From a virus: a stretch of 22,912 bases of DNA. The notes under the pieces were generated by a model, which was not told where the DNA came from, made no database searches, and saw nothing but the letters and a program-made list of their open reading frames with translations. Location of the stretch: the IMG/VR virus record IMGVR_UViG_3300027631_000144, positions 1 through 22,912 of that record. One strand, written 5' to 3'. Both the position numbers and the translations under genes were made by a program. This document shows positions 10,961 through 22,912 of the stretch, piece after piece (positions within the stretch are counted from its first letter, which is position 1; the number at the start of each line of letters is the position of its first letter).

Positions 10961-12031
10961 TTAATTTTTTGCTATACTAAATGTTACATCTTCATCAAAA
11001 TATTGAACATTATCATTTATATTTACTTTAAATTCAATTTTATAAACCCTATCAGCTTCCCAATTTGAAAGATTCAATTTAATATAATTACCAATAGAAT
11101 CACAACTAACTTTAGAATAATCACTAAATGGGACTATAATATCATGCGAATTAAAATCTTTTATTTGATAATAAGTTGTTGTTGGTAAATATTTTACATC
11201 AGTATATTCAAATGTAGTTGAAAATGTTTTTGAAGGATACAGTTCTCTACCAACTAACCTAATTTTAGGAATAGTTCCTAGTTTATATTCTTTTTTAAAA
11301 TTAATTACATTAACTTTTATATTTTCAGCGGTTAATGCAGTTAAAGATCCTGTTACAAAGGATTGGTCGTTCCAACCTATTCTTATTTTTGGTTGATATA
11401 TTGTATTTGTTTCTTTACTAAATACTTTTACTATTCCATAATCTTCCGTATCATTTTCTACATCAAATGAATGTTTTACTATAAGTCCTTCATTTGGAAT
11501 AGAACCACTCATCCAAGCTTGTAACATTGGTTTTATGTTCATACCAATATCAGCAGTACTATAACTAAATGATTGATTGGTACTATAAGATGAATACCAC
11601 ACACCACCATCTCCAAATTGAGAACCAGTAGAACCAGCCGTAAATACTCCTATTGGTAGCCATTCTAAATTAGAATCACCTTCTCTATAATTCCATGTTA
11701 CTCCTTGTGTAGATACATTATCAAATCTAGTACCCACTCCCATTTGCCAACTTTGTGATATAGGATATGCATATAATGTATATTCTAATGGAAGTTCTTC
11801 ACTTTGAGTTTCTTTTAATATAAGTGTAGCTTCGCTCATAGATACCGAAGTATCTACTAAAGATGATGATAAAAATCCTACATCAAATTTAAGTAATGCT
11901 CTTGATACATCCTTTACATTGCCATAGTAAACTTTGCTTATTTCTAATATTTCATCCAATCCACAATTTTGATTGGGTTGTTGTAAATATATCGATGCAT
12001 CTTTTGATGCTGTCATAAAATAGTATGCCAT
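10961..12031 (-). CDS. DNRLRE-type beta protein of the baseplate region
   Basis: In this 356-aa protein, residues 3-225 follow the pattern of DNRLRE/CBM-like beta-sandwich domains: ASKDASIY at the start (8-15), then LDEILEISK (25-33), SRALLKFDV (43-51), A-LILKE, YTLYAYPISQSW (84-95), GVTWNYREG (110-118) and a late PKIRIGW. In bacteria such domains sit in surface or carbohydrate-acting proteins. Here, between gp6 and fibre-like genes, it probably serves as a structural or host-contact module. The C-terminal third (235-356) is beta-rich and unassigned. Its ATG overlaps the gp6 stop by one base (TAATG), implying translational coupling. The domain call is moderately sure and the particle role is inference. 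Confidence 0.6.
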   Translation of the reverse strand: MAYYFMTASKDASIYLQQPNQNCGLDEILEISKVYYGNVKDVSRALLKFDVGFLSSSLVDTSVSMSEATLILKETQSEELPLEYTLYAYPISQSWQMGVGTRFDNVSTQGVTWNYREGDSNLEWLPIGVFTAGSTGSQFGDGGVWYSSYSTNQSFSYSTADIGMNIKPMLQAWMSGSIPNEGLIVKHSFDVENDTEDYGIVKVFSKETNTIYQPKIRIGWNDQSFVTGSLTALTAENIKVNVINFKKEYKLGTIPKIRLVGRELYPSKTFSTTFEYTDVKYLPTTTYYQIKDFNSHDIIVPFSDYSKVSCDSIGNYIKLNLSNWEADRVYKIEFKVNINDNVQYFDEDVTFSIAKN

Positions 12032-14067
12032 TATCTTACCCTCCCTTTTATATCTTGGTCTGGAAACTTAACTTCAAAAACCGATGGGTCTAACGATGGA
12101 TAAACAATTTTATCCTTTGTTGCCGCATCTATATTATATGAATTTGGTGTATAGTTTCCGCCACATTTATTTGTTATTTTCAACATTGGTACAGATGATA
12201 CCCCTTCAACATTTGCTAAAAGTAATTCTATTTCACTTAGATTAATAGTTTGATTAAATGTCATATTATCTATTGAAAAATAATCTTTTAACTCATTAAT
12301 ACATTGAATTAGTATTTCACTTTTATTATAATTTGCGTAACATATAATTTCAAATTCAGCTCCTATATTGATAACATACCCATCTAATAAATTAATACCA
12401 TCCGTAAGTATTTTATATTCATTAAGATATGTTTTTATATTTTCCTTAACAGCTCTATTAATTGGTGTTAAATTTTCATTAACATCATAAGCTAACAAAT
12501 ATAAATTAATTGCAAATGGATTATTTTTTTCGTTTTCATTAGATGTTTTACCAATTAAAAATTTAGTAATATCTTGCTTAACAGATAATTCACTTGGTTC
12601 ATCGGAATCTGGTTTGTTTACAAAATTCATAACCAAATCCGTAAATTCTTGCAAATTATTAGGAGATGCTAATATAGATGATGGTGAATTATTATCTAAC
12701 GTACCATCTGCAACTGCATATGATTTAGCTACTGCTCCAAATTTTGAAGGCATTGATAATACTCTTATTTGATAATCCTTTGCAGTTACTGCTCTATTTT
12801 GTGCTCCAAAATTAGCTAATGCATTTTGTCTTACTTCATTTATAGTCTCACCACTCTTACCACCTGTAGCTGGTATTTCATTATCAACTGCTACTGAATT
12901 TTTCATTTTTATGTATAATCCCAACTCTTGATTCGTAAACGATGATACATCTTCATCAAACTCAATACCATTAATAGTTGTTATTGAATTAACAGAAACG
13001 TTTGATGATACCCCACCACCTACTAAATATCTTACAGTTATAGTTGTATTTGCTGGAGATGTTCCGTATGTTTTTGTTTTTAAGAAATTTGTTGGGTCAA
13101 ACGATTCTTCTAATCTACTAATTGAATTTGGCAATCCCAATCCAACATTTTTAAGATTTGGAATTAATTGTTCATCACTAGCAGTTGGGTCACCAGCTCC
13201 AAATTGAATAGTTGTTGTACTATTTTGATTTACAATTGTGGTAAATCTTTTTGGAGTTTTAATTGTTTTTAAAATATAAGGTACAGTTGATTTAAATTGA
13301 TACAAATCAGAATCATTTGCTTCTGTATTAGGATGTTCTATGAACACCATTTCTTGAGCTAAATATGGAACTTCATACCATTTATTATTATTTGAATCTC
13401 TACAATCTAATATTTCAATAATATCACTTTCAGGTAAATCTATATACTGATATGGACTATAATTACCAAATGTAACTTGCTTAGTAATTATACTTCCAGA
13501 TTTACAATCTACATACTTTTTAATTAAATAATAAGTAGGTTCACCAGTAAGAGCATCTCTTTCATATACGGTAATTTCTCTATTCATCTCATCTGAAAAA
13601 TCAACAATATCGGATGTTATAAAATCTATACCATTATCGTTTGAAGTTGCTTTCATTCCAGACTTTATTCGTAAATAATATTTAGAATCCGGCTTATTAT
13701 TTATTCCCAAGCCAACAGATGGAACTAATTGATATACAGATAATGTTGTTGTAGCTGGTGATGTTACTTTTGGCTTATAACCTAAATATCTTGCTAAAGG
13801 AATTACACTTTCAATATCATCAGCGTATAACATCAATGATTGTTTAAATGTATCATCTATATAATATGATAAAGTATCACCTATATAAGATGCCATTTCA
13901 ATAAACATCATACCAGGAGATGCTTCGCTAAAATCATTATAAGTTTTTGGAAAATAAGTTTTAGAAAATTCAATAAGATTTTGTCTAAATGCAGAAAAAT
14001 CTTTATTAAGATATTTTACATCTTTGCCTTTATTTTTGAAATTTTTATTTATAGTATTGAGTGCCAT
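12031..14067 (-). CDS. gp6: Baseplate wedge protein, gp6-like
   Basis: At 678 aa it is close to the 660 aa of T4 gp6. The N-terminal region is diagnostic: YLNKDFSAFRQNLIEFSKTY (19-38), then FSEASPGMMFIEMASYIGD (46-64), then LSYYIDDTFKQSLM and ESVIPLARYLGYKP (86-99). A baseplate-J-like segment follows near the middle (GGKSGETINEVRQNA, AVTAKDYQIRVLSMP). gp6 proteins dimerise to form the ring of wedges around the hub and change shape during sheath contraction (family knowledge). The gene follows gp25 by 3 nt, and this gp25-gp6 order is conserved across contractile-tail phages. Its stop overlaps the next ATG. There is no sign of damage or frameshift. Confidence 0.9.
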   Translation of the reverse strand: MALNTINKNFKNKGKDVKYLNKDFSAFRQNLIEFSKTYFPKTYNDFSEASPGMMFIEMASYIGDTLSYYIDDTFKQSLMLYADDIESVIPLARYLGYKPKVTSPATTTLSVYQLVPSVGLGINNKPDSKYYLRIKSGMKATSNDNGIDFITSDIVDFSDEMNREITVYERDALTGEPTYYLIKKYVDCKSGSIITKQVTFGNYSPYQYIDLPESDIIEILDCRDSNNNKWYEVPYLAQEMVFIEHPNTEANDSDLYQFKSTVPYILKTIKTPKRFTTIVNQNSTTTIQFGAGDPTASDEQLIPNLKNVGLGLPNSISRLEESFDPTNFLKTKTYGTSPANTTITVRYLVGGGVSSNVSVNSITTINGIEFDEDVSSFTNQELGLYIKMKNSVAVDNEIPATGGKSGETINEVRQNALANFGAQNRAVTAKDYQIRVLSMPSKFGAVAKSYAVADGTLDNNSPSSILASPNNLQEFTDLVMNFVNKPDSDEPSELSVKQDITKFLIGKTSNENEKNNPFAINLYLLAYDVNENLTPINRAVKENIKTYLNEYKILTDGINLLDGYVINIGAEFEIICYANYNKSEILIQCINELKDYFSIDNMTFNQTINLSEIELLLANVEGVSSVPMLKITNKCGGNYTPNSYNIDAATKDKIVYPSLDPSVFEVKFPDQDIKGRVR

Positions 14068-14070
14068 ATA

Positions 14071-14502
14071 TTATGAATTTATTTTAAAATCTACCGTAAA
14101 GTTTTGTTGATTATATTTGGCTGTAAATACTATACTAACATTTAAAGCATACTCATCTTTCATTCTATCGGTTGATTCTATATCAATTGAATTAATTTCT
14201 AATTGAGGTAACCAAAATTCAATAGCAGATTCAATAGAATCATATATTTTTGATTTAATATCACCATCGTTTTGTTCAAATAAAAGTTCTCTTAAATTAG
14301 TACCAAATAATGGTTGTGCTAATCTCTCACCTCTATTTGTCAACAATAAATTTTTAACATTAGATTTTAATTGTTCTAAGTTATTATACGTTTGATTGAA
14401 TGTATTAGTTCCCATTTGTAACGGCAACGATAATCCTATTGCATAATCATTTACACTTTTATTATTACCAGTTACAATATATTGACCAACTACTACTGCC
14501 AT
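14071..14502 (-). CDS. gp25: Baseplate wedge protein, gp25-like
   Basis: A 143-aa protein, near T4 gp25 (132 aa). The GPW/gp25 domain spans about residues 40-140. The conserved core is LEQLKSNVKNLLLTNRGER (42-60), followed by QPLFGTNLRELLFE (63-76), then a long helix and an alternating beta strand pair (ALNVSIVFTAKY). In contractile injection systems this protein seeds sheath assembly and holds the gp6 core bundle (family knowledge). The historical 'lysozyme' label for this family is not supported by catalytic residues here. The ATG overlaps the stop of the upstream 166-aa gene (TAATG). Confidence 0.9.
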   Translation of the reverse strand: MAVVVGQYIVTGNNKSVNDYAIGLSLPLQMGTNTFNQTYNNLEQLKSNVKNLLLTNRGERLAQPLFGTNLRELLFEQNDGDIKSKIYDSIESAIEFWLPQLEINSIDIESTDRMKDEYALNVSIVFTAKYNQQNFTVDFKINS

Positions 14503-15002
14503 TATTTCTTTTTAAATCGTTTTACTAATTCGGAATAATCTCTATTTAGAGCTTTATCCAATTCAGGTACACCAGTTTGAACACCTAATCCAGTTGGAGA
14601 AGGTCCTTTTGCCAAATCACCATAACCCATTTTTTCAGCAATTGCAGTTCTACCTACTATTGAACCCATATCACCCTGTCCAAAACTCATTGTTCTATAA
14701 CCATCACCAGTTGCAGGTGCCATTGCTGTTTCATTCAGAATTTGGTTAATCATCGGGTTTTTACTAAATTGCTTTGTAGGTATTACCTTAGAAGTCACAG
14801 ACTCCATAATAGGTTCATCCTCCATCATAGCCTTAGCCATTGATAATCCAGTATTTTTAGGTTTTACAGCAGTTTGTTTACCTTCTGCTATAAGTTTTTT
14901 CATTTCAGCCTTTACAGTTTCCTTAATTAATGCCGGAAGTTGTTCTTTTAATTCCTCTTTAATAAGGATTTGGATGGCCTTTAAAAGTTTATCAGTATCC
15001 AT
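14502..15002 (-). CDS. Small baseplate-region protein, unknown function
   Basis: A 166-aa protein. The first 40 residues are an amphipathic, Lys/Glu-rich helix (LLKAIQILIKEELKEQLPAL, 6-25). Then comes a flexible Met/Ser/Pro-rich middle, a short helix with NQILNETA (86-93), a Gly-rich stretch (GDGYRTMSFGQGDMGS, 99-114) and a basic tail (KRFKKK). No membrane segment or enzyme motif is visible. It opens the wedge unit behind an ATATTTAT site and overlaps the gp25 start by one base, so its translation is probably coupled to gp25. From memory, proteins of this design occur beside gp25 in environmental T4-type phages. A scaffold or wedge-assembly role is a guess. Confidence 0.6.
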   Translation of the reverse strand: MDTDKLLKAIQILIKEELKEQLPALIKETVKAEMKKLIAEGKQTAVKPKNTGLSMAKAMMEDEPIMESVTSKVIPTKQFSKNPMINQILNETAMAPATGDGYRTMSFGQGDMGSIVGRTAIAEKMGYGDLAKGPSPTGLGVQTGVPELDKALNRDYSELVKRFKKK

Positions 15003-15058: not shown

Positions 15059-15949
15059 TTAAAAACCAAAAATTGTACCTCCAATTATCTTAGATGTTGG
15101 TTTACTTCTTAAATTATATAAGTAATTAATATTAGTACCAGCCCCATATGCTGCTGGATTATTTGATGTAAATAACGTAATTCCTTTTGGTACATCTTTT
15201 AATATATTTTTAGCAGCTCCATAAATAGATATTGCTGCATTTGTATTTCTAGTAAGACCATTTAAGTATGAATCTTTAGGACCAGGATCAAATCTAGTTC
15301 CAGTAACAGGTTGGAATTGATATGGTTGATTTATAATATCCGTAATTGTATCAAATCTATATTTTGGGTTTCTAACGCCAAGTGGAGTATATCCTATTCT
15401 AGTTCTATTTAATATAGTTGCCATAACCCAAGCTCTTTCAGTTTGATTTGATGTAGCTTCTGCGAATGTTAATGAAACTAAATCATTCCATTCGGTATCA
15501 GTCATATTTCTTCCTAAATAAGCTTCAGCTGCTTTTCTAGCATCTTGATTACTTGCTACAAAATTAGTAGATGGTGTATTACCATAGTTTGTAACATCTT
15601 TACCATCTGCGGTTTTTTCTGTTGGTTTAACATTTGTACCACCTCTTAAAATTGCCAATTCCGCTTCAAGATCATCAGGAACAACTACTAAATTACTTGT
15701 TATTTCAGGTGGTTTGAAACTAGTAGAATTATTTGGTAAATTAGGTATTTCCGTAGTATCCATTTGCATTTCAGGAATCGATTGATATCCTTTCCACTTA
15801 GCAAATCCAATTGAAGGTACACCAACACTAGTTGTATATGTCGTTAAACAAGTAGCCATACCTTCTACACCCAATAAATGTTCTTTAGCTAATGTTATAA
15901 AATCATCTACTAATAATCTAGGTACTTTATTTGGATTTATTATTGACAT
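15059..15949 (-). CDS. SleB-like cell-wall hydrolase, probable tail-associated lysin
   Basis: A 296-aa protein. Residues 1-55 form a small domain without known match (LLVDDFITLAKEHLLGVEGM). Residues 65-130 are a Pro/Asn/Thr-rich linker. Residues 135-260 fit the SleB/Hydrolase_2 family of peptidoglycan hydrolases (probably lytic transglycosylases): LVSLTFAEATSNQTERAWVM (157-176), with Glu164 as the likely catalytic acid, then ILNRTRIGY (179-187) and the substrate-loop motif NQPYQFQPV (207-215). There is no signal peptide or membrane segment, and the gene lies in the hub unit. It therefore probably digests peptidoglycan during DNA entry rather than at lysis, replacing the lysozyme domain that T4 carries in gp5. 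It starts immediately after the stop of the SGNH gene (0-nt gap). Confidence 0.7.
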   Translation of the reverse strand: MSIINPNKVPRLLVDDFITLAKEHLLGVEGMATCLTTYTTSVGVPSIGFAKWKGYQSIPEMQMDTTEIPNLPNNSTSFKPPEITSNLVVVPDDLEAELAILRGGTNVKPTEKTADGKDVTNYGNTPSTNFVASNQDARKAAEAYLGRNMTDTEWNDLVSLTFAEATSNQTERAWVMATILNRTRIGYTPLGVRNPKYRFDTITDIINQPYQFQPVTGTRFDPGPKDSYLNGLTRNTNAAISIYGAAKNILKDVPKGITLFTSNNPAAYGAGTNINYLYNLRSKPTSKIIGGTIFGF

Positions 15950-16972
15950 CTATAAAGCGTTTTTTATTATATTTGCTATTATTTTGTGTTGTGATTTGCT
16001 TGGATGTAATCCATCACTTAAAGGGCCTATTTCAAATTTACCTATAAATTGAGCATTTTTAATATCGGATAATAATGAAGATTGATATTTTTTATACTTT
16101 TCTATCATAGGTATGTATTTAGTAACATCACTAACATATTTGGTGGTTGGTATTTTTTTATAATCAGTAGAGGTATCCATATTATAACCAATGATAATAA
16201 CAGCTTTAGCTCCCGCGTTTGTTATTAAATCTACCATTTTTTGAACATTACTTATCGAAGTTTTTATCGATATTGAATCATTAAAAGCATCGTTAATTCC
16301 ACCATATATGTAAACTCTATCATATTTTGTAGATGATAGCTGATTTGGTAAATTATCTAGCATCCATTTTGTAGTCATACCACCTTTGGCTAATACATCT
16401 ATATTTAAATTAGGTAATTGTGGTTTTATAACTAATGGATATGATATAGAACCAGCCGTTACAGAATCTCCTACAAATAATAAAGATTCTTTTTTATTTG
16501 AATCTAATGGGTCTGTATTTGTATCTTCGTTTTTCTTATTAGATTTATTATCATCTTTTTGTACACTAGTTGATTTTGATGTTTTCCATATACCAGGATT
16601 TAACACTACATTTGTATTAACTAATATATTAGCAGCTGCTCCGATTGCTACTTGTTCTAATGTAACAAGCGGAGGAATGAGTGTACTCATAACAGCCCCA
16701 GTCCAATATTTAATTACACCCTTTCCCATTTCTCCAGTTAAATCGTATTGTGCTTTTGAATTTAATCCATTTGTTAAAGCTTGTACAAATATAGCTTTCA
16801 TACCATCTATATCACCTTTTACAAGCGGAATTCTATTTACTAAATCACCTCCTCTTTTTATACAAGCATCATACTGAATAGCAAATGTAGTTGCTACCAA
16901 ATCAATATTTTTAATATTTTCAGGTTTACTTACAACCTTCAAGACTTCGGTTCTAAAAGTTTCCCAAGACAT
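15950..16972 (-). CDS. Baseplate-type domain fused to SGNH hydrolase/esterase
   Basis: A 340-aa, two-part protein. Residues 1-130 are a helical domain starting MSWETFRTEVLKVV, with FAIQYDACIKRG (30-41) and DLTGEMGKGVIKYWTGA (77-93). I recognise this layout from baseplate genes of environmental T4-type phages, where it can occur without an enzyme. Residues 131-162 are a Lys/Asn/Asp/Ser linker. Residues 163-340 are an SGNH hydrolase: block I FVGDSVT (Ser170), block II Gly in AKGGMTT (195-201), block III GGIND (224-228; Asn227) and block V DGLHPS (Asp320, His323). All four family signatures are present, so an active esterase or deacetylase is likely. The substrate is unknown; capsule, O-antigen or O-acetylated peptidoglycan are candidates. 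Confidence 0.75.
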   Translation of the reverse strand: MSWETFRTEVLKVVSKPENIKNIDLVATTFAIQYDACIKRGGDLVNRIPLVKGDIDGMKAIFVQALTNGLNSKAQYDLTGEMGKGVIKYWTGAVMSTLIPPLVTLEQVAIGAAANILVNTNVVLNPGIWKTSKSTSVQKDDNKSNKKNEDTNTDPLDSNKKESLLFVGDSVTAGSISYPLVIKPQLPNLNIDVLAKGGMTTKWMLDNLPNQLSSTKYDRVYIYGGINDAFNDSISIKTSISNVQKMVDLITNAGAKAVIIIGYNMDTSTDYKKIPTTKYVSDVTKYIPMIEKYKKYQSSLLSDIKNAQFIGKFEIGPLSDGLHPSKSQHKIIANIIKNAL

Positions 16973-16975
16973 ATA

Positions 16976-17476
16976 TTAGAATTTTGGAATATTAGAAGAT
17001 ATTGAGTCTACCTTAGATTTAAAATCAGTTGCCATAGATTTTGCGGCTTCTAATTTTGATTTAGCTTCTTCTATTTTTGACATTGCTTTTTCTTTTAAAG
17101 CTTTAGCTTCTTCTATCTTAGCCATTGCTTTTTCTTTTGCTGCTTTAGCAGCTTCTAACGCAGCTTTTGCATCAGCTGCTTTTTTAAATTTTTGAGGAAC
17201 CGGAATTTCTTTCATTTTAGGCTTTTGGGGTTTCCTAAGCCTTAATGTTTTTAAATTAGGTATTTTTGGTATTTCAGGTTTTTTTAATGCGTTTTTTAGT
17301 TTATCCGCAGTTTCCGCAATTTTACCACCCAATTCTTTAACATTATTAAAAGCATCTTTTGCATCAGATACGCCAGGAATATTATTAACTGCACCGGCAA
17401 CCACATCTTTAGCTGCGCTTGCAAAATTTTGTAAATCGGGTTTTATCTGATTTGGTAGATTACTTAAATTTTCCAT
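16976..17476 (-). CDS. Lys/Ala-rich coiled-coil protein of the hub unit
   Basis: A 166-aa protein. Residues 1-66 include an Ala/Val/Asn-rich segment (FASAAKDVVAGAVNNIPGV) and a helix (GGKIAETADKLKNAL). A Lys/Pro-rich stretch follows (KKPEIPKIPNLKTLRLRKP, 65-83). Residues 98-158 are almost pure Ala/Lys/Glu helix, with two adjacent 14-residue repeats, KEKAMAKIEEAKAL (114-127) and KEKAMSKIEEAKSK (128-141), which gives a regular coiled coil. There is no enzyme motif. It sits 1 nt after the spike gene and 3 nt before the SGNH gene, so it is probably a rod or linker part of the hub, or a chaperone for spike assembly. Both are inference. Confidence 0.55.
   Translation of the reverse strand: MENLSNLPNQIKPDLQNFASAAKDVVAGAVNNIPGVSDAKDAFNNVKELGGKIAETADKLKNALKKPEIPKIPNLKTLRLRKPQKPKMKEIPVPQKFKKAADAKAALEAAKAAKEKAMAKIEEAKALKEKAMSKIEEAKSKLEAAKSMATDFKSKVDSISSNIPKF
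17054..17137 (-). repeat. Two adjacent 42-bp in-frame repeats
   Basis: Units 17096-17137 and 17054-17095 each code for 14 residues of the coiled coil. They match at 35 of 42 bases by eye, with mismatches mainly at the variable heptad positions. This suggests a recent in-frame duplication within the gene. Confidence 0.7.
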
Positions 17477-17477
17477 A

Positions 17478-18728
17478 TTATGATGTTTGATTTTTTGAAC
17501 TTAGTATTTCTTGCAATCTATTGTTAATATCAATAAAGTCATTAAAATTTTCAGGACCCAATGCAGTTGGGCCTGATGGAGTTAGGTATTGTTGATTTAA
17601 AATTGCTGTTAATAAATCTGCTAATAAATCAACTAATTTATTTCCCTTAACCATAGGTTCTCTATCAATATCACCCAAAAATATAGAACCATTTCCAGTA
17701 AAAAATGCAACGTCTCTATCATTTGTAATTACATTTACATTACCTCCAACACTAACATCAATTCCTAATTTATTATCAATTGACATAGCTCCATCTGAAA
17801 TAAATCCATAGTTCTTTTTTGAATAAAATATCATTTCAGCTGTTTTTGCTGAAATTATTATTCTACCAGAATTAAGTAATAATTGATTTCCTATTAATTT
17901 AGTAGGATAGTTACTAAATGAATCGGGCTTTGTTTCAAAATCATTAGAACCTTTGCTATCAATCGTACCTGGTTGAAAGGCTAATTGATAATCATTAGAA
18001 CTCATAGTTATTACGCTGCCATCTGAATTTATATCATCATCAATACTTAACGTTGGTTCTAATTCTCTATTAAATGAGCTTTCACCATTTCTTAATATAG
18101 TAACAGGTGAAAATGATTTTTTTGGATTATTATATGCTGAAAATCTTAAAGATTGTCCAAATCTAGATTCCAATAAAGAATCTCCTTCATATAATTTTAA
18201 TTTATGTATATTTGGTGTAAATTGAAAATAATCACCAAATTTATTATATTTTGATGATTTTGATAATTTTGTATTTGGCATACCAGTTATAACACCTTCT
18301 CTATACATTTTAGATGCATCTGGATTTGAATCTACATCCAAATTATTAGCAGATTCAAATTTTGTAGAAATGAAATTTATTGTTGCTGAATTATTAGGCC
18401 CATCGCCTGGTTGTATTTTTTTATAAAATGCACCAATACCATTTATTATTATTTCAACAAGTTCATTTATTACTGGAATTGTTTTTATTGAAGCATTATC
18501 ATATGGGAATGCGTATGATAAATCGGTTGAATCTACTGAATAATCATCTAACAATCTATATGCCACCGAACCAATATCTGCAACGGTTGCTTTACCTTTT
18601 TTTATTAATTCATGAGTATCATCTAAAATAATATCATAAACAACACCAATATTTATTTGTCTCGAAGAAGCATTTGGATTGGTTATATTATTAGATGCAA
18701 CCATTCTGCCCGAAAGTATCTCTCCCAT
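17478..18728 (-). CDS. Baseplate hub/central spike protein, gp5-like
   Basis: A 416-aa protein. Residues 25-97 resemble the OB-fold start of gp5/VgrG-type spikes (INIGVVYDIILDDTHELI, then YAFPYDNASIKTIPVINELV). Residues 168-215 include the conserved KLYEGDSLLESRFGQSLRFS pattern (177-196) known from spike proteins of environmental T4-type phages. Residues 275-355 alternate small and hydrophobic residues in short strands (NQLLLNSGRIIISAK, MSIDNKLGIDVSVGGNVNVI), as in a trimeric beta-helix spike, ending IFLGD. A final helical part (EPMVKGNKLVDLLADLLTAI, 357-376) is common in these proteins. No lysozyme domain is present, unlike T4 gp5. That activity appears to be moved to the separate SleB-like gene three genes downstream. 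Confidence 0.7.
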   Translation of the reverse strand: MGEILSGRMVASNNITNPNASSRQINIGVVYDIILDDTHELIKKGKATVADIGSVAYRLLDDYSVDSTDLSYAFPYDNASIKTIPVINELVEIIINGIGAFYKKIQPGDGPNNSATINFISTKFESANNLDVDSNPDASKMYREGVITGMPNTKLSKSSKYNKFGDYFQFTPNIHKLKLYEGDSLLESRFGQSLRFSAYNNPKKSFSPVTILRNGESSFNRELEPTLSIDDDINSDGSVITMSSNDYQLAFQPGTIDSKGSNDFETKPDSFSNYPTKLIGNQLLLNSGRIIISAKTAEMIFYSKKNYGFISDGAMSIDNKLGIDVSVGGNVNVITNDRDVAFFTGNGSIFLGDIDREPMVKGNKLVDLLADLLTAILNQQYLTPSGPTALGPENFNDFIDINNRLQEILSSKNQTS

Positions 18729-19178: not shown

Positions 19179-19994
19179 TTAAACTGGGATTACTTCGATT
19201 GTAATCTTTGGTTGGTATCCTTCAGGCAATTGTCTATTAATACCTTTGAATTCATCTACCTTACCCTTAAAGTAAGTTATTTGTAATATTTTATCCGTTA
19301 GGTTCATTACAGTTTGAGATGATGTAGACATTTCTTCTGTATCTCTTTTCATATTAAGAGCCGGTTTCTTTGGAAAGTATTCCTTTCTCATAGCTTGTGC
19401 TATTTCTTTCCAATCTTCTACTTTATCAACTGATTTCTCAGCTGATATCTTTCTTAATTTTGAACTTAGATATTTCTCACCGCTTGTATATCCAGCATCG
19501 GTGAACATATGTCCGTGATTTGTACGAACAACAGGTGATTCGGAGTTTTGAAGTTTAACATCAGCCTTATGCTTTGATGTAGTTTCAATACTAACCATAT
19601 GTTTTGTAGATGATACAAATGTATGACCTTTAAGAGATAATCCACTCTTGCCCTTATATGATAGTGCAGCTCGTACCGCATCCATTAGAGTAGGTTGCTT
19701 AATGATGTTTCTCATCTTATCACCATCAGGACCTGGCTTTCCTCCTTTCTTTACAATCTTATGTTCAGCTTCATCGTGTCCAACTAATAGTGCTGAGTTT
19801 ACAACACCAATTCCGTTTTCATTTAAGCCCTCACTCCAATCCGTTACTAAATCGTGCAGATATGCAACTTCAACACCATCAATGATAGTGTGTACTATTT
19901 CTAAAGATGGATTATAAGCTCTATCTCTATTTTTAGCTAGGATAAACTTATCTTTAATTTCTTTAGATACGATTATGCACTCTTTAAGTTTCAT
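19179..19994 (-). CDS. Ntn-hydrolase-like protein (C45/acyltransferase or NRDE type)
   Basis: This 271-aa product matches the cysteine Ntn-hydrolase fold by pattern. Cys6 begins a strand (CIIVSKEIKDKFILAKNRDR, 6-25), with the conserved Arg of the RN/NRD motif at 23. NENGIGVVNSAL (58-69) gives the Asn/Gly turn, RTNHG (157-161) matches the conserved NH block, and STSSQTVMNLTDKILQITYF (223-242) matches the late strands ending in the substrate pocket. Family members expose the Cys as N-terminal nucleophile by self-cleavage; here that would remove only MKLKE. Substrates in the family are amides (penicillins, bile-acid conjugates, acyl-homoserine lactones), so the target is open. It ends the unit that also encodes the two leader-bearing proteins. 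Fold moderately sure, substrate unknown. Confidence 0.55.
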   Translation of the reverse strand: MKLKECIIVSKEIKDKFILAKNRDRAYNPSLEIVHTIIDGVEVAYLHDLVTDWSEGLNENGIGVVNSALLVGHDEAEHKIVKKGGKPGPDGDKMRNIIKQPTLMDAVRAALSYKGKSGLSLKGHTFVSSTKHMVSIETTSKHKADVKLQNSESPVVRTNHGHMFTDAGYTSGEKYLSSKLRKISAEKSVDKVEDWKEIAQAMRKEYFPKKPALNMKRDTEEMSTSSQTVMNLTDKILQITYFKGKVDEFKGINRQLPEGYQPKITIEVIPV

Positions 19995-19997
19995 TTC

Positions 19998-21152
19998 TTA
20001 TTGGATGTATGCGTTCAATTCATATGAGTTTCTCATACCATAAACTTGAATTTGAAGTTTCTTTCTTTGTACCTTACCATCTTTAGATAATTCAATACTA
20101 AATTTATTAGTCTTGCCTTCCGATGGTTTTCTAGGACCCATTCCTATTTGTCTGAAAGAATCATCATCATTTATTTCGTATCCTTTTTTCTCTGCGTATG
20201 CTTTAGCTGCTTGGATAGCTGATGTATATGATTTGTGATATACTTCGTAATCTGATTTTGCTTCCGTTATTGATTCGTTTGTTGATACAAATAATCTTAC
20301 CGAAAGAATTACATCATTACCAATATTTAAAGTTCTTACTTTATGTTTTTCTAAATCGTAAGCCGGATTTATTACAGTTGCTTTTGCAATTACACCATCT
20401 TTAATAAAGTGTGGTTGTAATCCAGAGTAGTTATCATCTCTAAACATAAAAACATCTTTAGGAGAATCCTTAGATATTTTAATTATCTTCTTTAAACCTT
20501 CCTTACCCATAAAGCAACCACCTTCACATTTAGTTCCACCATAAGTTTTACCTTTTTGTAATGTTACTTCGGTTACTGTACTTTCACCAAACATACCTAC
20601 AAAATTACCTTGATATTTGTTACCAGGTTTTCCACTTATTGCTGTTGAAAAGTCCATTCTATCTTTTAACTTTCCTTTAGATATAAAGTTAAAAAGTTTT
20701 TTAGCATTCAAATTGAAATCATCTATAAATTTTTGTACTGCAATTCCACGAGTACCAGTAAATCCAGCAATTCCCATTGCTTCTCTACCTATTACTTCAT
20801 CTACGGATTCAACTTTAGCTCCATCTAATCCACCATATCTAAGTGTATATATGTATTGATACAATTCAGGCCATCCACCTTTAACTGCACCAAATTCGTA
20901 TTTATAGAATACTTTAGAACCAAAAGTTGCAGATGATGTTTCTTCACCTCTACCACCTAAATATGGTTCTTGCTTATCTTTGAATTTTAAGAAAGCCTTA
21001 TATCCTCTCATTAAATCAGTATTTTTCTGAGCTAATGTAGTCATTATTTGCTTAACCTTTGGATATTTTTTTAAGAATGTTTCCACTGCTTTACTATCCA
21101 CTCTGCGAACTAAAATAGTTTCTTCGTTTAGTATATCTTTTAACTTTATCAT
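19998..21152 (-). CDS. Two-domain protein with capsid-targeting-like leader
   Basis: A 384-aa protein. Residues 1-10 (MIKLKDILNE) resemble the roughly 10-residue capsid-targeting leaders of T4 internal proteins, which end in a site cut by the head protease after (L/I)xE. Residues 20-290 are an unassigned domain with Arg49 (DLMRGYKAF), ETSSATFGS (71-79), a Gly-rich stretch, EVTLQKGKTYGG (195-206) and a CEGGC pair (Cys209, Cys213). A second (L/I)xE-like site, SITEA (294-298), precedes a compact C-terminal domain (300-384: YEVYHKSYTSAIQAAKAYAE, GPRKPSEGKTNKFSIEL, QIQVYGM, SYELNAYI). I recognise that domain as a stand-alone phage protein in other T4-type genomes. It may be packaged in the head and processed there. 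The function is not known. Confidence 0.6.
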   Translation of the reverse strand: MIKLKDILNEETILVRRVDSKAVETFLKKYPKVKQIMTTLAQKNTDLMRGYKAFLKFKDKQEPYLGGRGEETSSATFGSKVFYKYEFGAVKGGWPELYQYIYTLRYGGLDGAKVESVDEVIGREAMGIAGFTGTRGIAVQKFIDDFNLNAKKLFNFISKGKLKDRMDFSTAISGKPGNKYQGNFVGMFGESTVTEVTLQKGKTYGGTKCEGGCFMGKEGLKKIIKISKDSPKDVFMFRDDNYSGLQPHFIKDGVIAKATVINPAYDLEKHKVRTLNIGNDVILSVRLFVSTNESITEAKSDYEVYHKSYTSAIQAAKAYAEKKGYEINDDDSFRQIGMGPRKPSEGKTNKFSIELSKDGKVQRKKLQIQVYGMRNSYELNAYIQ

Positions 21153-22112: not shown

Positions 22113-22912
22113 CTAAAATACCAACTTTGACCCAATTTGTATGTTATTTAATAAAGAAAAACTATCTCCAAAAGACATTGCCGCTTTATATGATGCCGAA
22201 AATCCAAATCTTTTACTTAATTTGTAATCATATCCCAATCCTACCATTGCTCCCGGAGTTCTACTCACAGTACTTCCACCAGTCACCGTATTCCAAGCTA
22301 ATGGGGATTGCATTACGAATACCTGCGGAGTTAGGGTAACCTTTCTATTATAAGGATATGGTTTCATCCAAAATCCTACCAAAGATGAACTTAAACTTAC
22401 ATCATATCCACCAGTCATTGCGTTTTGCATCATTAAAGTAATTATACCCACATTATATCCAAACGTTCCGTATTTAGGATGTGGTTTAATCCAAGTGTAT
22501 CCGTTAAGGTTCATTATAGTTCCCTTAAGATATGCAAATGTAGTTCCGTATGAATGTATTGCGTTTAATTTACCATCTTCAAAATCCATCTTAGTAATAC
22601 CACCACTTAATGCGAATTGGTTTAGGGTACTCCAAATAAGTGCGGTAGCTGAATATGATTTATCTCCCATTAAAGAAGATTTAGATACACCTACACTCAT
22701 CATTACAGCGTAGTTTCCGTCAGCATCTTCCGTACCAGCCAAATCACTAGCCATCATCATTGGATTTGCTACTGCTTTCTTTTTTTCTTCTTTTTTCTTT
22801 TCTTCCTTCTTCTCCTCTTTCTTTTCTTCTTTAGATTCTTCCTTCTTCTCCTCTTTTTTCTCCTCTGACTTTGATTCCTCTTTCTTTTCTTCTTTGCTTT
22901 CCGATTTAGTTT
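22113..22912 (-). CDS. Outer-membrane-like beta protein with Lys/Glu-rich linker, N-terminus beyond window
   Basis: The frame is open from the right edge (first full codon at 22910) to the stop at 22113, giving 265 visible residues. The ATG cluster at 22752-22760 is internal, because the preceding 50 codons are open and continue the same protein. Visible residues 1-45 are almost entirely Lys, Glu and Ser (KEEKK repeats). The rest is rich in Gly, Tyr, Ser and Thr with strand-like alternation (VSLSSSLVGFWMKPYPY, VTLTPQVFVMQSPLAW, MVGLGYDYKLSKRFGFSASY) and ends in Phe (GSKLVF), as outer-membrane beta-barrels often do. A signal peptide would lie outside the window. In a phage this could be an envelope protein that alters receptors or aids lysis, or a cargo gene from the host. 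The role is unknown. Confidence 0.6.
   Translation of the reverse strand, partial: TKSESKEEKKEESKSEEKKEEKKEESKEEKKEEKKEEKKKEEKKKAVANPMMMASDLAGTEDADGNYAVMMSVGVSKSSLMGDKSYSATALIWSTLNQFALSGGITKMDFEDGKLNAIHSYGTTFAYLKGTIMNLNGYTWIKPHPKYGTFGYNVGIITLMMQNAMTGGYDVSLSSSLVGFWMKPYPYNRKVTLTPQVFVMQSPLAWNTVTGGSTVSRTPGAMVGLGYDYKLSKRFGFSASYKAAMSFGDSFSLLNNIQIGSKLVF
22776..22910 (-). repeat. Lys/Glu-rich low-complexity coding tract
   Basis: About 45 codons of mainly AAA/AAG and GAA/GAG encode repeated KEEKK units with Ser interruptions. On the plus strand this gives unbroken pyrimidine runs, the longest from 22775 to 22832. Such tracts change length easily by slippage, so the linker length may vary among relatives. 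Confidence 0.8.

Follow-up and report, generated by a model that had tools for sequence, protein, structure and literature searches.

Two exchangeable enzyme seats, probably on a T4-like baseplate, and a possible deacetylate-then-cut enzyme pair

The locus examined here raises the question of why genes for an SGNH esterase and a SleB-like hydrolase lie side by side in the baseplate block of a virus, and whether their products might act in succession on the cell wall of the host. The locus resides in IMG/VR record IMGVR_UViG_3300027631_000144, of which positions 1-22,912 were analysed; this whole stretch of 22,912 nucleotides is called the window. An earlier note on this DNA proposed that the adjacent genes encode a two-step wall-penetration pair, in which an esterase removes acetyl groups from peptidoglycan before a second enzyme cuts it.

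The baseplate block and its two adjacent genes

The block is carried on the minus strand and reads in the order spike, coiled-coil protein, SGNH, SleB, conserved 166-aa protein, gp25 and gp6. The gp5-like central spike (17478..18728) was assigned from its position, its length (394-417 aa in relatives) and the earlier note. A Pfam search matched neither a lysozyme nor any other domain in this protein, in agreement with the claim that it lacks the lysozyme built into the T4 spike. An Ala/Lys-rich coiled-coil-like ORF that is absent from many relatives (16976..17476) separates the spike from the SGNH gene (15950..16972), which is followed by the SleB-type gene (15059..15949). Beyond these lie a 166-aa protein with 70-95% identity across relatives (14502..15002), a gp25-like baseplate wedge protein (14071..14502; GPW_gp25, E 1.1e-12; phrog_261, E 5e-22) and a gp6-like baseplate wedge protein used as a tree marker (12031..14067; phrog_219, E 4e-16).

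The SGNH and SleB-type genes, both minus-strand ORFs, are indeed separated by 0 bases, as the earlier note reported. The special status given there to the missing gap did not hold, however, since most neighbouring genes here lie -1 to 4 bases apart, and nearly all related gene pairs at the same two positions -1 to 15 bases apart, irrespective of the enzymes encoded. Because tight spacing is usual both here and in relatives, the zero gap is uninformative, and abutment was ruled out as a sign of enzyme coupling.

The GC content is 30%, and a Shine-Dalgarno-like leader precedes only 2 of the 18 genes, the remainder having A-rich leaders. These properties would fit Bacteroidota, and we consider the virus to be T4-like with a host that probably belongs to this phylum. 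A search of genome contigs for the host yielded no relative. The nearest cultured gp6 relatives, and the only ones, are Microcystis phage Mel-JY01 (42.6%), which carries a chitinase-type gene at the corresponding position, and Flavobacterium phage immuto (36.9%).

Several other genes of the window were also noted. Upstream of the baseplate block, a gene for a 271-aa protein (19179-19994), for which no family was found, retains 83-98% identity in most relatives (68-69% in the most distant), while their spikes retain only 45-60%. A 384-aa protein (19998-21152) has a 206-aa counterpart in a related locus (L003, 2017-2637) in which a middle stretch of ~180 residues is missing. The gene at 22113-22910 begins with Lys/Glu repeats and continues as an apparent virus-encoded outer-membrane beta-barrel protein, with no Pfam match.

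Two anchors with exchangeable cassettes

Scans with gp6, SGNH, SleB and the N-terminal domains of both enzymes returned ~250 loci, in which the genes between spike and gp25 were then read; collapse at 95% identity left 81 distinct pair groups. Two conserved N-terminal domains, here called anchors A and B, define two positions, seats A and B, that are occupied in the window by the SGNH and SleB-type proteins, respectively. Anchor A comprises ~130 residues (MSWxxFK...YDLVGEMGKGVxAYW) and corresponds to residues 1-130 of the SGNH protein (16583..16972, minus strand), which are mostly helical in an AlphaFold model (helices at residues 3-14, 23-39, 55-71 and 78-91). Anchor B comprises ~60 residues (MSxIxPT...LIxDDFIxYAxxHLxTVxG...WxGY) and corresponds to residues 1-60 of the SleB-type protein (15770..15949, minus strand). 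Both were delimited by alignment of relatives whose C-terminal enzymes are unrelated. Proteins in either seat consist of the anchor, a variable linker and then an exchangeable C-terminal enzyme, and both anchors recur in the 81 groups with unrelated cassettes. The N-terminal non-catalytic domains that the earlier note ascribed to both proteins are thereby borne out.

Seat A carries CHAP, VanY, M15_4, M15_3-like, CHAP7 (a cluster of its own with no Pfam match) or SGNH cassettes. Seat B mainly carries Phage_lysozyme, GH19, M15_4, VanY or SleB, and also CHAP7; one rare cassette looks by eye like a GH108-like domain, which is a guess. Fusion proteins with both anchors and a single enzyme, either M23 or lysozyme, occur in some viruses. 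The assigned seat enzymes other than SGNH all belong to peptidoglycan-cutting families, save for a serine-hydrolase-like add-on, with L200 seat B, L223 seat B and CHAP7 falling outside the assignment. Since the seats are filled by wall-cutting families, they appear to represent a wall-entry position.

Two arrangements depart from this scheme. The add-on, a domain with a GxSxxG motif and a late His, lies behind VanY in seat B of L168-L170 and in seat A of L223, which are different viruses, and may represent the recruitment of another acyl hydrolase to this position. In L065-L068 seat A is doubled, with M15_4 and CHAP each bearing its own anchor A, and GH19 is present in seat B.

Anchors also occur without enzymes. 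Between its spike and gp25, megaphage LR756508 encodes a 175-aa protein (L118, 10297-10824) that by eye resembles tandem anchors A and B with no enzyme, and in four loci (L132, L139, L155 and L159) a 69-aa protein next to an M15_3-like seat-A protein consists of anchor B only. These enzyme-free forms suggest that the anchors probably serve a structural purpose in their own right. No sequence relative of either anchor was found in the PDB, and immuto has no recognisable anchors at the corresponding position. Likewise, tblastn against cultured phages gave no match to the SGNH protein, the SleB protein or anchor A. The position and conservation of the anchors would place them in the baseplate near the spike.

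The SGNH and SleB-type enzymes and their pairing

The seat A gene encodes a 340-aa protein composed of anchor A and the SGNH cassette. Pfam Lipase_GDSL_2 is matched above its cutoff (E 1.3e-10, residues 166-330), and the AlphaFold model (pLDDT 87) has an SGNH fold, with Z ~19 over 157-170 residues and rmsd 2.1-2.3 against 4rsh and 5hoe. The catalytic domain (residues 159-340; 15953..16498, minus strand) contains S170 of block I, G198 of block II, N227 of block III, and D320 and H323 of block V. Ser170, Asn227, Asp320 and His323 are invariant in all 13 aligned seat-A SGNH proteins, and Gly198 is replaced by Ala in two of them. By block residues and fold the protein belongs to the SGNH/GDSL hydrolase superfamily, as the earlier note had it. 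An attempt to place it in a known phage or NCBI family gave generic matches only (phrog 'lipase'; weak PRK10528 in relatives).

Fold does not decide the substrate of this enzyme, because carbohydrate acetylesterases (5hoe, Axe2), TesA and other lipases or thioesterases, and aryl esterases score equally, within ~1 Z unit. One could therefore argue for a lipase or lysophospholipase that aids crossing of the outer or inner membrane: the fold comparison places TesA, a thioesterase/lysophospholipase L1, with the top matches (Z 18-19), and the family matches just described point the same way. However, the equal scores of carbohydrate acetylesterases, together with the wall enzymes that otherwise occupy the seat, make this reading rather improbable.

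Another candidate substrate is a capsule, O-antigen or other surface polysaccharide, which the SGNH enzyme would de-esterify, leaving the opening of the wall to SleB alone. In the literature consulted, most phage SGNH enzymes are tail-fibre polysaccharide deacetylases (PMC11058221, PMC9569702), and SleB occurs in places without SGNH. The enzyme studied here, however, sits on anchor A rather than on a fibre. Because the other occupants of the seats are almost exclusively peptidoglycan enzymes, a role on the wall appears more likely than one on the capsule, and we regard the surface-polysaccharide reading as unlikely.

If peptidoglycan is the substrate, the phage enzyme still differs from the established peptidoglycan O-acetylesterases. 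Ape enzymes carry GDS(H/F) together with Dx(V/T)H in family 1 or DG(I/V)H in family 2 (PMC1199599), whereas the window protein has GDSV and DGLH. As it lacks these motifs, classification as an Ape enzyme is not warranted, yet it may be Ape-like in action.

The seat B gene encodes a 296-aa protein composed of anchor B and a SleB-type cassette, a predicted lytic transglycosylase. Its catalytic domain was placed at residues 131-296 (15062..15559, minus strand) by a SleB alignment and by a fold match over residues 138-296. The SleB-like identity claimed in the earlier note is upheld by fold but not by the domain search. In the latter, Hydrolase_2 reached 20.4 bits against a cutoff of 27 for the window protein; among 22 aligned sequences (15 of them SleB proteins), six gave a match at E <= 0.01, the best being 2e-5. 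In the former, the model, with pLDDT 64 overall and 75-91 over most of the catalytic domain, has one strong match, to Bacillus anthracis SleB (4fet; Z 8.1, 117/122 residues), the next match being at Z 3.3; Foldseek alone gave no significant match. The candidate catalytic acid, Glu164, is invariant in all 15 aligned SleB proteins. These data point to a lytic transglycosylase fold for the modelled domain, and the catalytic sites of both enzymes look intact.

The earlier note suggested co-occurrence across related phages as a check on its proposal. Among the 81 groups, 11 carry SGNH with SleB, none carries SGNH with another enzyme, two carry SleB with M15_4 (L107 and L108), one carries SleB with a frame-broken SGNH (L138), and 67 carry neither. 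SGNH is thus paired with SleB in all 11 groups that contain it, but SleB is found without SGNH in L107, L108 and L109-L115, which partly fulfils a refuting condition named in the earlier note, and the pairing traces to one event. In a gp6+gp25 tree, the SGNH/SleB viruses form a single clade (14 of 14 tips, support 1.0), and the association therefore counts as one acquisition rather than as repeated co-acquisition. This tree reduces strict co-occurrence, when taken as evidence of coupling, to that one event.

Two further observations concern the distribution of SGNH sequences. The broken frame in L138 (2044-2679) is intact in its near twin L131 and reflects either a sequencing error or a real loss. 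Free proteins with related SGNH domains (28-48% identity) and an N-terminal hydrophobic segment are encoded in L085-L099, some of them on contigs of 100-295 kb.

A single acquisition raises the possibility that SGNH and SleB were merely inherited together and act independently, with no coupled mechanism. The clade structure is what such co-inheritance would produce, and movement of SleB by itself agrees with it. The SleB cassette of L107 and L108, whose partner is M15_4, nests near those of L002 and L004 (support 0.88), which suggests transfer of SleB, unaccompanied by SGNH, to a different baseplate. In other viruses (L109-L115), tail proteins of 1,440-1,540 aa also terminate in a SleB domain, with no SGNH within the stretch examined. 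However, cassettes in other clades swap often, even between near-identical gp6 backgrounds, and no swap was seen inside the SGNH/SleB clade. At the outside rate, 4.4 swaps in seat A and 4.7 in seat B were expected (P ~0.01 each), a rough statistic given that rates vary, that sampling favours viruses related to the window and that three clade tips have no readable seat A. We therefore consider independent action after co-inheritance to be quite unlikely.

The composition of the pair bears on the same question. SGNH/SleB is the only two-enzyme pair among the 81 groups that has neither a peptidase nor an amidase, an absence that deacetylation followed by cutting would explain. Relatives bearing lysozyme, an enzyme that is likewise sensitive to O-acetylation, have no esterase in the two seats.

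A proposed two-step entry and its relation to known systems

We propose that SGNH and SleB-type proteins fill two exchangeable enzyme seats on a T4-like baseplate, where the N-terminal anchors would keep each enzyme near the spike. During entry, the SGNH enzyme would most likely act first, stripping O-acetyl groups from MurNAc at C6, after which the SleB-type enzyme would cut glycan strands that otherwise resist cutting. Prior deacetylation would be needed because a lytic transglycosylase requires a free C6 hydroxyl. The bacterial chemistry is established and agrees with the earlier note: lytic transglycosylases cannot act where MurNAc C6 carries an O-acetyl group, and Ape esterases restore the free hydroxyl for them (PMC1199599, PMC6174289). 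Peptidoglycan O-acetylation reaches 69% in Bacteroides fragilis and 27% in B. thetaiotaomicron (PMC1199599), so walls of this kind are present in the phylum to which the host probably belongs.

The proposed two-step pair stands in part. In its favour are the wall enzymes in the seats, the exclusive pairing of SGNH with SleB, the lack of swaps in the clade, the lytic-transglycosylase fold of SleB and the match of SGNH to carbohydrate acetylesterases. Against it count the restriction to one clade, SleB without SGNH, esterase-free lysozyme relatives, the missing Ape motifs and the equal lipase and thioesterase fold scores. On balance, deacetylation followed by cutting from two exchangeable baseplate seats is our best explanation, with a probability of roughly one half. 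We hold somewhat more tentatively, at a little under even odds, the wider view that a widespread uncultured T4-like lineage has a two-seat toolholder by its spike, which one clade has loaded with a peptidoglycan O-acetylesterase and a lytic transglycosylase as a device tuned to O-acetylated walls.

Two fixed anchors with plug-in entry enzymes would provide a direct record of the wall chemistries met by these viruses, and two-seat relatives could supply lysin modules that nature has already paired. Should the SGNH enzyme prove to be a peptidoglycan esterase, these viruses would answer wall O-acetylation at the level of the virion. This modification is known mainly for conferring lysozyme resistance.

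A search of part of the literature found no description of a phage-baseplate esterase for O-acetylated peptidoglycan, of a baseplate SleB or of a two-anchor exchange system. Gene position and anchors suggest presence in the virion, which would group the two-seat system with modular virion-associated lysins. Staphylococcus phages phi11 (Gp44) and 80alpha (gp59, Tal) similarly have a baseplate hub with a C-terminal SGNH domain and a separate wall hydrolase in the baseplate (PMC7048315, PMC4876445). These, however, are siphoviruses of Gram-positive hosts with a gp27-like hub anchor and a putative SGNH activity, and theirs is not described as an exchangeable system of two seats. With its built-in lysozyme, T4 gp5 also places a wall-cutting enzyme at a contractile-tail spike, whereas here the enzymes reside on two separate anchored proteins and are exchangeable between viruses. 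The proposed chemistry, in which de-O-acetylation enables transglycosylase action, is that of Neisseria-type PatA/Ape and lytic transglycosylases (PMC6174289), but that system is cellular and periplasmic, and the phage SGNH protein lacks the Ape motifs. Finally, modular endolysins and receptor-binding proteins similarly keep the N-terminal part conserved while their catalytic parts are swapped (PMC10684548), whereas in the present lineage two adjacent, dedicated baseplate anchors appear to swap wall enzymes side by side.
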